Assembly (NCBI GenBank): GCA_018266295.1
Contig: JAFEAQ010000004.1
Location: 496,001-560,000 of the forward strand
Source of the DNA: Bdellovibrionales bacterium
GTDB taxonomy: Bacteria; Bdellovibrionota; Bdellovibrionia; Bdellovibrionales; Bdellovibrionaceae
Direction: 5' to 3'
DNA: 64,000 nucleotides
Under the pieces are notes generated by a model. That model worked only from the letters and a program-made list of their open reading frames with translations. It did not search any database and was not told where the DNA came from. Positions 57,945 through 62,010 of the stretch are shown piece by piece. Position numbers and translations under genes: made by a program. Each line of letters starts with the position of its first letter. Positions within the stretch are counted from its first letter, which is position 1.

Positions 57945-58508
57945 CTAGTTGTTCAAGCTTGGGTTGCTAGAAGGAAGATTTGGAGTTTCCTCTTCGTTCT
58001 GAGCACCAGGAAGAACAGTTGCCTTTTCAGCAGCTGCTTTCGCAGTTGTATCTGGATTGTAACGAGTCGCTGCATTAGCAACGCGGTTCTCAAGATTTTG
58101 TTTCACGTCATCAGCAGAAACGCGCTCAACATTTGCGATGTTAGCCGCTTGCTTAGTCATGTAGTCTTGAGGGAAAGCGCCCAATTTAGCGAGGTAGTTT
58201 GAAATGCTACCGTTGCCGTTTTGGATGATTTCGCGAAGTGTGAAAAGAGGAGCATATTGAGATGCTTTCTTTTCTGCTTCGAAAATGATTTGAGTCAATG
58301 TTGCAGCAGTAATGTCGTTTTTAGACTTATTGTCGATAACCATTACTTCTTCGTTTGTACGAATCATTTTAGCGATATCGTCCAAAGTCACGTAGCAAGA
58401 TTGCTGAGTATCATAGAGCTTTCTGTTTTGATAGCGCTTGATAATTTTGACTTTTGAGTTTTGTTTAGAAGTCAGTGTTTCGTTTTGGTTGATCAAAGTG
58501 CCTCCCAT
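57945..58508 (-). CDS. PhaR-like polyhydroxyalkanoate regulator
   Basis: 187 residues. The N-terminal DNA-binding domain RYQNRKLYDTQQSCYVTLDDIAKMIRTNEEVMVIDNKSKNDITAATLTQIIFEAE is a clear PHB/PHA accumulation regulator signature. The C-terminal ~80 residues are an Ala/Asn-rich helical tail. The ATG at 58508 is followed at once by GGGAGG, a ribosome-site sequence, so the TTG at 58496 could be the real start. No PHA synthase or phasin is in the window, so the target may be other genes. Confidence 0.85.
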   Translation of the reverse strand: MGGTLINQNETLTSKQNSKVKIIKRYQNRKLYDTQQSCYVTLDDIAKMIRTNEEVMVIDNKSKNDITAATLTQIIFEAEKKASQYAPLFTLREIIQNGNGSISNYLAKLGAFPQDYMTKQAANIANVERVSADDVKQNLENRVANAATRYNPDTTAKAAAEKATVLPGAQNEEETPNLPSSNPSLNN

Positions 58509-58865: not shown

Positions 58866-59372
58866 ATGAAAATTCAATCAAAACAAAGACTTAGCTATAA
58901 GAACATTGTCTTCATGTCGAGTCTCGCAGGCCTTCTTGGCTTTATGGCGGTCCCTAGCTGGACCAAGCAAAGGGACGAAGACCGGATTCTCAGCGCCAAA
59001 CGCCACGCCGAAGTCCTTGGTTACCAAGTATTTGAAATCTATCGCGAAGCGGCAAGAAATACACACCCAGAAAATACAAACTCCCGTGCACCTGCTTCGG
59101 TAGGGCCTTCGGAGGGGGAAGCTCTCAATTTTCGTGATGCTGGCAGCATTGGTAATGATCCCTGGGGTCAGCCGTATCGTTACAAAATCCTTAGCGCTAA
59201 CTCGACCAATAGCGGGGAGCCTATGAGGGTTCAGATCTGGTCGGCAGGGCCTAACAAGGTCTTTGAAACCGACGACAAGCCGGGTGTGCCTGCAGAAAGC
59301 TATAAGGGCGATGATGTCGGTGTGGTGCTCTCGATGAGCCATCTGTCTGGTAATAGACCTGCCGAACAGTAA
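58866..59372 (+). CDS. Pseudopilin-like (GspG-like) protein without prepilin site
   Basis: 168 residues. The N-terminal span (IVFMSSLAGLLGFMAVPSW) is followed by a helix, and the C-terminal part DPWGQPYRYKILSAN...RVQIWSAGPNKVFETDD...KGDDVGVVLS matches the conserved tail of type II secretion major pseudopilins, including the DxxDD calcium site. The usual leader with Gly before Phe-Thr-Leu-Ile-Glu is absent, so it would not be cut by prepilin peptidase. Start 58866 was chosen since it gives a standard lead-in. The rest of the secretion system is not nearby. Confidence 0.75.
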   Translation: MKIQSKQRLSYKNIVFMSSLAGLLGFMAVPSWTKQRDEDRILSAKRHAEVLGYQVFEIYREAARNTHPENTNSRAPASVGPSEGEALNFRDAGSIGNDPWGQPYRYKILSANSTNSGEPMRVQIWSAGPNKVFETDDKPGVPAESYKGDDVGVVLSMSHLSGNRPAEQ

Positions 59373-59471: not shown

Positions 59472-61328
59472 ATGCTTCACCGCTCAACAAAGTCCGCGCT
59501 CATAGCTACAGCCTTACTTACACTCTCGGCCTGCGCAACAATGCAGGATTCAGATAAAGCTCAGTACTACGATGCGGCTTTCAACGATAAGAATCGGGCA
59601 CCGGCAGCTTTCACTCCGCAACTTCTCACTGGCGGTGAGGGAACAACGACTGTGTTGGATCCTCTCTATCTCCGTACGCAAGCTGATTACTACTTTGCGA
59701 TGGGTGAGTCCTACAGCCTTGACGGCAATCACAGCAAAGCGATCGATGCGTTCAAGATGACTTTGCTCTACGATCAAGACTCAGCAATGGTGAATATTCG
59801 TTTGGCGACAGAGTACTTCAAAACGGCTCAGTTCACAGAGGCTTTGACTCAAGCGGAAGAAGCGATTCGCAAAGATCCAAAAAATACCGAAGGCCGTTTG
59901 CTCTTGGGTGGTTTGTATCTTTCTTTGAAACTTTTCCCGAAAGCGATTGCCCAGTACGAATATGTTTTGAAGATTCAACCAAACAATGTTGAAGCTCCGG
60001 TTTACTTGGGTGCCGCTTACACTGAGATCAAACAGTACGACAAAGCTGTGAAGTTCTTCGATGCTTTATTGAAGAATGACGACTATGCGACTCCGCACTT
60101 GGCTTGGTACTATATTGGCCGCGTGCGCGCAGATCAAAAAGGCGAAAACTATCAAAAGGCTGCAATCAAAGCTTATCAAAAAGCGATTGAGTTGAAGCCG
60201 GACTTCTTGGACGCATACCAAGCAATTGCTTCTTACTACATCCAAAAAGGACAAGAAAGCCAAGCGTTGGCTCTCTATAAGAAGTATCAAAAGGAGCAAG
60301 GCCCCAACGCAAAAGTGGCTGAGATTCTCGCGCAAATGTATGTTGAGAATGAACAGTACGATTTGGCTTACGAGCAATATCAAATTCTTGAAGGAAGCTC
60401 TGAAGACACGCTCAACATCAAACTCAAAATGGCTTTGATCTTGATCGAAAGAAAAGACTTCGCGAAAGCGGCTGCGAAACTGGAAGATATCCTTCGTGAT
60501 GCCCCTGAGTCTGACAAAATCCGCTTCTACTTAGCAGCGGTTTATGAAGAGACTAAAGAATTCGACAAGGCCGTAGCGCAATTCAAGAAAATTCCAGCAG
60601 CAAGCCAGTTCTATGGTGAAGCAATGGTTCACACGGCTTATATCATGAAGAACAAAGGCCGCGTGAGCGAAGCCATCGAGGTCGTTGAAGGTGCTTTGAA
60701 AGAACGTAAAGACCAAGCTCAGCTCTATGCAATGTATGCTTCGTTGCTTGATGAGCGCGGTGACTACAATAAAGCTCTAAATATGCTGACAGATGCAGTT
60801 GAGAAGTTCCCAGAGAGCGCTCAATTGAGATTTTACTACGGTACTCTTTATGATCGCACAGGTAAAAAAGACCGCGTGATCACAGAAATGAAAAAGGTAC
60901 TTGAGCTTGACCCAAAACATGTGCAAGCGATGAACTACTTGGCTTTCACTTGGGCTGAAGGCAACACGAACCTTCCGGAAGCGGAAAAAATGGCTCGTAA
61001 TGCTCTGATGATCGAACCAAAAGATGGTTACATCATGGATACACTCGGCTGGATCTTGTACAAACAAGGTCGCTTCAATGAAGCCGTGAAAGTTTTGGAA
61101 GCAGCTTTCAAAAATCAATCGTCAGTGAGCATTATCGCTGAACACTTGGGTGATGCTTACTATAAGCACCAAATGATTGAGAAGGCGAAAAAGATGTACA
61201 TGAAAGCCGCGGACCTTGAATCTGATTCTAAAAAGGTTGAGGGCATCCGTGCGAAGATCACAGCGATCGAAAAACAACAAATTCCTACTGAGCTGCGCAT
61301 GCCAGCATCTACAGGAACTGATCGCTAA
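59472..61328 (+). CDS. TPR-repeat lipoprotein
   Basis: 618 residues. Lipoprotein signal ends at Cys21 (LSAC). From about residue 70 to 590 there are repeated TPR units (for example AIDAFKMTLLYDQDSAMVNIRLATEYFKTAQ; LPKAIAQYEYVLKIQPNNVEAPVYLGAAYTE; KALNMLTDAVEKFPESAQLRFYYGTLYDR). Such proteins serve as scaffolds in the envelope. It follows a palindrome and ribosome site and precedes a LolB-like lipoprotein after 49 bases. Confidence 0.87.
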   Translation: MLHRSTKSALIATALLTLSACATMQDSDKAQYYDAAFNDKNRAPAAFTPQLLTGGEGTTTVLDPLYLRTQADYYFAMGESYSLDGNHSKAIDAFKMTLLYDQDSAMVNIRLATEYFKTAQFTEALTQAEEAIRKDPKNTEGRLLLGGLYLSLKLFPKAIAQYEYVLKIQPNNVEAPVYLGAAYTEIKQYDKAVKFFDALLKNDDYATPHLAWYYIGRVRADQKGENYQKAAIKAYQKAIELKPDFLDAYQAIASYYIQKGQESQALALYKKYQKEQGPNAKVAEILAQMYVENEQYDLAYEQYQILEGSSEDTLNIKLKMALILIERKDFAKAAAKLEDILRDAPESDKIRFYLAAVYEETKEFDKAVAQFKKIPAASQFYGEAMVHTAYIMKNKGRVSEAIEVVEGALKERKDQAQLYAMYASLLDERGDYNKALNMLTDAVEKFPESAQLRFYYGTLYDRTGKKDRVITEMKKVLELDPKHVQAMNYLAFTWAEGNTNLPEAEKMARNALMIEPKDGYIMDTLGWILYKQGRFNEAVKVLEAAFKNQSSVSIIAEHLGDAYYKHQMIEKAKKMYMKAADLESDSKKVEGIRAKITAIEKQQIPTELRMPASTGTDR

Positions 61329-61377: not shown

Positions 61378-62010
61378 ATGAAGCGTTTATTTTTTTTATT
61401 ACCATTGATGGGTCTTTTAATTTCATGTGCTACTGCTCCTAAAGCGCCACCGGTTGCGCCGGGCAGTTTGAAACAAGCTCAATGGGATACCAAAGCTGTC
61501 ATTCGCGATATCAAAGCCAACAAATCTCACTCCGTTGATATTGAAATTGCCGGTGATTATCCGGGAAAGCTTCGTATGGATGTGAAAGCGTTCATGGGAA
61601 CGTCTGTTGCAAGTCTTGCTTTGAATAACGACGATATTCGCTATGCGATTTACCCTCAGAAAAAGTTCTTTGAAGGAAAAGCGAACGAAGGCTCCTTCAT
61701 GCCTTTGATGAATGTTCCTCTTCACCCGCGAAATTTTATGAGCATTGCCTATGACCTGCCGATGAGAGGAACCGGCTGGGACTGCAAAAAGGACCCATCG
61801 GGTTTACCAAGCGAGTGTGATCAGGCTTCGAAGGGAGTCAAAGTCCAATGGACCGACCGAACCCCTGAGGGACAGAAAAAGGTGCTCATCAGCGGCCCTA
61901 CGTTCGAGATGAGATGGCTCTTTAAGCCACCCCAGACTGAAGTCCAGTTCAAGGATGAAACGTTCTCTCTTGAGGCTCCAGCCGAGTTCAAAACAATACA
62001 GCTCAAATAA
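61378..62010 (+). CDS. LolB-like outer-membrane lipoprotein
   Basis: 210 residues. Lipoprotein signal ends at Cys17 (LISCATAP). The mature domain has a LolA/LolB-like pattern: GDYPGKLRMDVKAFMGTSVASLALNNDDIRYAIYPQKKFFEGKANEG, and Trp/Pro-rich strands (EMRWLFKPPQTEVQFKDETFSLEAP). A role in lipoprotein handling is possible. It follows the TPR lipoprotein, which in many bacteria lies beside lolB. The Cys pair (WDCKKDPSGLPSECDQ) may form a disulfide. Confidence 0.68.
   Translation: MKRLFFLLPLMGLLISCATAPKAPPVAPGSLKQAQWDTKAVIRDIKANKSHSVDIEIAGDYPGKLRMDVKAFMGTSVASLALNNDDIRYAIYPQKKFFEGKANEGSFMPLMNVPLHPRNFMSIAYDLPMRGTGWDCKKDPSGLPSECDQASKGVKVQWTDRTPEGQKKVLISGPTFEMRWLFKPPQTEVQFKDETFSLEAPAEFKTIQLK

Follow-up and report, generated by a model that had tools for sequence, protein, structure and literature searches.

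Pilins and pseudopilins are defined by a cleavable class III leader, and prepilin peptidase needs glycine at position -1. The minor pseudopilin GspK (XcpX) is without Glu at +5, yet it is cleaved after glycine and placed at the tip. For the major pseudopilin GspG, a review states that altering the coordinating aspartates of the V. cholerae protein impairs the system (PMC10574481). Among TPR lipoproteins, the P. aeruginosa gene lbcA shares an operon with lolB, as given in the extract of PMC6050968.

Here we describe a gene whose product appears to be a GspG-derived protein that has left filament assembly. It lies in the window, by which we mean the whole stretch of 64,000 nucleotides of Bdellovibrionales DNA that was analysed. 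The descent of the protein from GspG, the pattern of its leader residues on a tree and the synteny of its locus were all established by computation. We found no mention of the window gene among the papers listed for pseudopilins in Bdellovibrio and for unprocessed pseudopilins, and the extracts of PMC6561027 and PMC2797640 held nothing pertinent to it.

The window gene and its kinship to GspG

The gene begins with an ATG at 58866, ends with a stop codon at 59370-59372 and has a product of 168 aa. A first-pass annotation, which had read here a pseudopilin-like protein without a prepilin leader at 58866-59372, had these coordinates right. The features of the gene are as follows.

58866..59372, + strand: leaderless GspG-derived membrane protein, 168 aa (frame listing; weak T2SSG and TIGR01710 matches; hhalign to GspG-like proteins)
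58887..58892, + strand: codons for R8-L9, aligned to the prepilin cleavage pair Gly(-1)/Phe(+1) (hhalign; family alignment; structural alignment)
58902..58904, + strand: codon for N13, aligned to prepilin Glu(+5) (hhalign; family alignment, with Asp in 40 of 84 members)
58905..58961, + strand: hydrophobic stretch, predicted membrane anchor, residues 14-32 (read from sequence and hydropathy; inside the model-predicted helix 11-64)
59085..59099, + strand: R-x-x-A-S family signature, residues 74-78 (R in 84 of 84 members, A in 82, S in 82; aligned to R-Y-P-T-S of a GspG-like protein)
59157..59168, + strand: DPWG motif common to GspG, residues 98-101 (family alignment)
59241..59315, + strand: tail SxGPN ... 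GDD, counterpart of the GspG calcium loop, with Asn at the first acidic position (family alignment; PDB profile alignment)

The N-terminus of the protein is basic (MKIQSKQR), and the motifs of its head domain read RAPAS, DPWGQPY, SAGPN and GDD. The GspG-type tail that had been noticed on first pass is weak by single-sequence searches but clear with a family profile. Taken alone, the window protein matches Pfam T2SSG (PF08334) with E 0.044 and 14.3 bits, under the cut-off of 21, and NCBIfam TIGR01710 with E 0.0045 and 17 bits, under the cut-off of 88.85, so that routine annotation would probably miss it. Among the 22 proteins that form the rows of our family profile A1, PF08334 recognises 7 and TIGR01710 recognises 6 at E<=0.01. 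We also fetched 20 GspG-like loci, all of which carry prepilin sites except L042; profile A2 comprises 17 of these (L041, L045 and L046 dropped) and A3 comprises 16 (L042 dropped too). Aligned by hhalign to the 16 GspG-like proteins with intact prepilin sites, A1 gave a probability of 98.8% and E 5.9e-17 over 114 columns, with the homology spanning both the helix and the C-terminal domain. This profile-profile comparison rules out chance similarity to GspG.

The same alignment pairs R8 with Gly-1, L9 with Phe+1, N13 with Glu+5 and RAPAS with R-Y-P-T-S. At the prepilin positions the window protein thus has Arg(-1), Leu(+1) and Asn(+5) as against the Gly, Phe and Glu expected of a GspG class III leader, and the family alignment places R8, L9 and N13 in the same way, in agreement with the earlier statement that the cleavage motif is absent. 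In structural alignments with three filament entries, the aligned part began at residue 9 of the model, paired with residue 1 of the chain. When the family profile was run against the PDB by hmmsearch, the first match was 'General secretion pathway protein G' (5wda, E 0.0026), and the +1 column of the profile (position 12) lines up with the first residue of its chain. That search found nine sequences at E<=1. Three are ATP synthase subunit b proteins, presumably brought in by the long helix; one is a geopilin, and the other five are of the GspG type or from type II secretion.

Could a different start supply the leader? The first-pass annotation had named such a start as the outcome that would speak against it, and no start codon restores a leader. 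Upstream, no stop interrupts the frame as far as about 58653, the only starts ahead of the helix are TTG 58848 and ATG 58866, and the residue at -1 is the same for both. An alternative start as the explanation of the missing leader is ruled out, since either codon leaves the residues beside the helix unchanged. Furthermore, in the orthologues L003 and L004 an in-frame stop lies one codon away from the ATG, which makes a longer leader impossible there.

Structure prediction, proposed on first pass as a check, gave a long N-terminal helix and three or four strands, a pseudopilin-like outline at low confidence. AlphaFold, given 17 GspG-like proteins as alignment, returned a helix over residues 11-64 and three strands at a mean pLDDT of 65; the single-sequence model, at a mean pLDDT of 47, breaks the helix in two and has four strands, ordered as in the guided model. 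Foldseek found no match of the model in the PDB at E<=0.001, and VIA-align over Foldseek's 82 chains put T2SS pseudopilin entries in the top six rows (Z 4.8-6.0), followed closely by a type IVb pilus at 4.7. As the guiding alignment consisted of pseudopilins, the models are weak as independent evidence.

Leader residues across the family

With the window protein alone as query, 36 of the 59 genomes of relatives gave matches at E<=0.01. Profile A1 reaches 98 of 140 genomes of the order at E<=1e-3 and 86 of 140 at E<=1e-12, the smaller figure being the 98 listed genomes minus the 12 with a best E above 1e-12. The matches in these 12 are weak, and at least some of them are canonical GspG, since those at G041:C122, G047:C18, G118:C24 and G123:C16 coincide with places found by the GspG model. 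Three genomes sampled elsewhere in the class (f11) all carry the family, with E 2.8e-25 or better, and a sample of the phylum gave matches at E<=1e-8 in 51 of its 240 genomes, only two of them outside the class. Those two matches resemble ordinary prepilins (L133, with A before LTLIE; L134, with G before FTLIE), and in these samples the family is essentially confined to one class, presumably Bdellovibrionia. The 86 distinct frames minus these two prepilins leave 84 sequences, which include six non-syntenic paralogues and were drawn from part of the matching genomes; the identity of 21 orthologues to the window protein is 23-41%.

Most orthologues, which the first-pass annotation had suggested checking for the cleavage motif, are without it. 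Position -1 is Gly in 7 of the 84 distinct sequences, Ala in 5 and Glu in 29, the rest having Arg, Thr, Gln, Tyr, Ser, Leu, Val, Pro or others, and at +5 there are 40 sequences with Asp, 21 with Gly, 10 with Ser and a single one with Glu. The carriers of Gly-1 are three sequences of f11 (NQGLTSFD, NQGFTSFD and NHGFTSFD) plus those of f2, f3 and f9, and all seven also have Asp5. Asp5 occurs without Gly-1 in all syntenic-type sequences of f4, f5, f8 and f10 (14, 1, 3 and 10, respectively); it is lost in f6 (2/2) and in most of f1, the family of the window (Asp or Glu in 5 of 41). Both Gly-1 and Asp5 are missing from the window protein.

We placed these residues on a tree of the PhaR and TPR proteins encoded by the neighbouring genes (78 rows, one per locus), which was made by a quick method with SH-aLRT support only and has three long branches, including the f9 row. 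The Gly-1 rows form the outgroup and early branches of this tree. Parsimony on it requires at least 2 changes for Gly-1 and at least 4 for Asp/Glu5 and gives no direction of change; the outgroup position of the Gly-1 rows and the source of the family in GspG both point to loss. The leader seems to have been lost stepwise within the family, the direction being one that we infer from these two indications. The state without a leader is probably derived within the family, and it may not hold for every orthologue.

With the leader missing, no start that repairs it and most orthologues without Gly-1, an uncleaved, membrane-anchored protein is the natural reading of the window sequence. It is also what the first-pass annotation had concluded, adding that the protein may represent a new role of the fold; these three observations support the anchored reading, with the new role a putative one, and the leaders of the early orthologues are near-complete (G before FTSFD). 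For the window protein itself we infer a single-pass topology and escape from cleavage.

A different outcome would be that prepilin peptidase makes a noncanonical cut before residue 9, with Arg or Glu at -1, and that the protein is an unusual minor pseudopilin. The combination of Gly-1 and Asp5 in seven early-branching members and the presence of Ala-1 in 5 of 84 are in keeping with this, but elsewhere in the family E, R, T, Q, Y, S, L, V, P and further residues are found at -1, a variety not expected of a protease site. The source genome, which has one A24 prepilin peptidase gene, offers a further contrast. Its 24 N_methyl matches include 17 over the cut-off, and 17 of these 17 confident prepilins have Gly-1 and Glu5, a figure to be read as a contrast and not as a census, since the N_methyl model favours that motif; the 7 matches below the cut-off all have Gly-1. 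We judge a noncanonical cut to be improbable.

The calcium site that the first-pass annotation had seen in the tail is only partly retained. On general knowledge of GspG and the PDB profile alignment, we take positions 130, 149 and 150 to be the GspG calcium ligands. The Asp pair of the tail is kept, with Asp at the D149 position in 76 of 84 members and at the D150 position in 73 of 84, but at position 130 the Asp of the aligned GspG is replaced by Asn in the window protein and in 58 of 84 members; 17 have Asp. Judged by its residues, calcium binding by the window protein is plausible.

The conserved locus and the paralogues

Three further genes of the window belong to the setting of the family.

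57945..58508, - strand: divergent PhaR-type regulator, conserved neighbour (PHB_acc_N, E 9.7e-29)
59472..61328, + strand: TPR lipoprotein, conserved neighbour on the same strand as the window gene (best natural PDB relative PA4667/LbcA)
61378..62010, + strand: small lipoprotein, in the slot held by lolB after lbcA in Pseudomonas (no family match)

Between the divergent PhaR-type regulator and the co-directional TPR lipoprotein gene sit 77 of the 84 distinct sequences. The one other of the 78 syntenic-type sequences, L132, has the PhaR gene and no TPR gene, at a contig end, and the remaining six, which have neither neighbour, are paralogues elsewhere. Measured up to the first ATG of its frame, the TPR gene follows at 50-210 bp in 66 of the 74 loci that allow a measurement, which does not prove a single operon. 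The TPR lipoprotein matches PA4667 (LbcA) with E 2.3e-30 over residues 261-591, a score to be seen in the light of TPR repeats matching broadly and of engineered TPRs scoring higher. For the small lipoprotein, identity with LolB is unsupported, as neither an 8-row profile nor the family searches gave a match. Across one set of syntenic loci the PhaR-type regulator is 57-93% identical and better conserved than its neighbours there. Of the locus tags Bd0213-Bd0224, Bd0223 alone led to a published statement. According to the extract of PMC12546842, Bd0223 is a granule-associated regulator that is up more than 4-fold during growth in prey, and we would equate Bd0223 with this PhaR-type neighbour gene.

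About 54 of the 140 genomes of the order have no convincing family match. Eighteen of them were checked for the TPR gene, which was present in 17, and 16 loci were read: in 15 of the 16 PhaR adjoins TPR directly, and the sixteenth has no PhaR, apparently at a contig end. The family gene is thus dispensable, and the TPR lipoprotein works without it. Its absence from this spot in several genera is clean, as it might be for a decaying, functionless remnant of a pseudopilin. Such a remnant is highly improbable in view of conservation throughout the class, with R74 kept in 84 of 84 members and with 82 of 84 having the signature's A, likewise its S, and likewise D98, at an identity of 23-41% to the window protein in the 21 orthologues. 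The conserved motifs and the kept locus likewise make a pseudogene unlikely.

The locus also bears on whether the protein has kept a role in type II secretion, where, uncleaved in the membrane, it could be a platform or regulator and, by contacting GspG-like surfaces, cap, prime or limit the pseudopilus. Its head retains the GspG features DPWG, SxG and GDD, and a partner is available, since the GspG model finds a match (E<=1e-6) in every one of the 102 high-quality genomes of the order. As all of them have such a match, co-occurrence cannot separate a role in type II secretion from another. The location is less favourable to such a role: the 77 distinct loci lie between PhaR-type and TPR lipoprotein genes, the window gene with these same flanks is outside any gsp operon, and the canonical GspG of the genome, at C11:82181, is on a contig other than that of the window. 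The distribution differs too, with the family unconvincing or missing in about 54 of 140 genomes as against a GspG-model match in 137 of 140 (above the curated cut-off in 103). A retained function in secretion is, in our view, unlikely, while being the most serious rival.

The six non-syntenic paralogues (L016, L030, L153, L126, L128 and L129), none of which has Gly-1, have a setting of their own: 6 of 6 come directly after the gene of a TSP1 (thrombospondin type 1) repeat lipoprotein. The repeats were recognised by Pfam in two of the six pairs and by tblastn to those two in the remaining four. The lipoprotein also has a DxSxS-containing domain, for which Pfam gave no match and which we take to be von Willebrand A-like. 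The converse does not hold: the paralogue is present at only 4 of 30 fetched TSP1-lipoprotein loci, although 106 of 143 genomes have relatives of the lipoprotein. The pairs of TSP1 lipoprotein and leaderless paralogue lie at L204:3762-6144, L205:3471-5741, L206:4517-6376, L207:4380-6350, L208:4990-7001 and L129:2434-4765, in families f1 and f4, with a spacing from overlap to 36 bp. In the source genome the TSP1 lipoprotein finds five matches with its C-terminal part, among them G000:C8:206676, C8:56192, C6:207560 and C6:325534.

Two further observations concern other GspG-like proteins. The source genome encodes a second leaderless one, of 135 aa (L203:2846-3253, that is, G000:C19, ~265845-266252; T2SSG E 1.1e-12), directly after the gene of an RHS-repeat protein (L203:73-2832); it is possibly an immunity or accessory gene and another non-filament use of the fold. 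GspG-model matches also fall in open frames of 417-853 aa (G132:C42:29930-30400, G042:C93:54987-55463, G103:C41:181693-182166 and G113:C48:7680-8150), which are perhaps fusions.

A putative role and comparison with known systems

The best explanation, and one that we consider probable, is that the window protein is a duplicated GspG-type pseudopilin that is no longer a prepilin and has become an uncleaved inner-membrane protein. In the ancestor of the class the leader would probably already have been altered at +5, from Glu to Asp. Gly(-1) would then have been lost in about two events, and in the family of the window most of Asp+5 would have decayed as well. Such losses are what one expects once neither processing of the N-terminus nor the filament contact between Phe1 and Glu5 is of importance. 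Insertion would be prepilin-like, with the basic N-terminus cytoplasmic, a helix at about residues 14-32 and the GspG-like head periplasmic. The product would never be cut, methylated or drawn into the pseudopilus, and would remain a single-pass protein of the inner membrane. There it may act as a periplasmic partner or scaffold of the adjoining lipoprotein, the LbcA-like TPR protein or, for the paralogue, the TSP1-repeat protein. The two separate links to lipoprotein genes lead us to prefer this as the most likely role, by way of a guess. Against this picture stand the seven members that still look cleavable (Gly-1, Asp5), which suggest that a class-wide role may tolerate processing.

A broader proposal is more doubtful, and we offer it tentatively. 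The class may have repurposed the type IV pilin or pseudopilin fold as a lipoprotein partner that is fixed permanently in the inner membrane, outside filaments, with an LbcA-like TPR scaffold that maybe governs the turnover of cell-wall hydrolases and a TSP1 branch, its processing signal having been lost through Glu5 to Asp, then Gly-1, then Asp5. A class-wide syntenic family that retains the GspG head, and whose leader seems to decay in steps that can be read, amounts to a natural experiment on what each of the leader residues is needed for, and it suggests a use of the pseudopilin fold outside filaments.

Among described systems, the LbcA (PA4667)-lolB pair of Pseudomonas aeruginosa resembles this locus in having a TPR lipoprotein gene followed by a small lipoprotein gene. 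It differs in that the extract of its description mentions no pseudopilin-like gene, and the small lipoprotein here has no LolB match. A protein from a Verrucomicrobiaceae MAG (L042:3836-4279) likewise combines a membrane helix with a GspG tail and has no prepilin site; it is a single sequence, in which the leader was perhaps lost independently of the window family. GspK (XcpX), as generally understood, shares with the window protein the lack of Glu+5, and the window protein additionally lacks Gly-1. The nearest relative is the major pseudopilin GspG/PulG/EpsG (TIGR01710, PF08334), to which the window protein is alike in its N-terminal hydrophobic helix, DPWG turn, SxG and Asp-rich C-terminal loop, and from which it is set apart by the loss of Gly-1, Phe+1 and Glu+5, its scores below the cut-offs, its other location and an RxxAS signature of its own.
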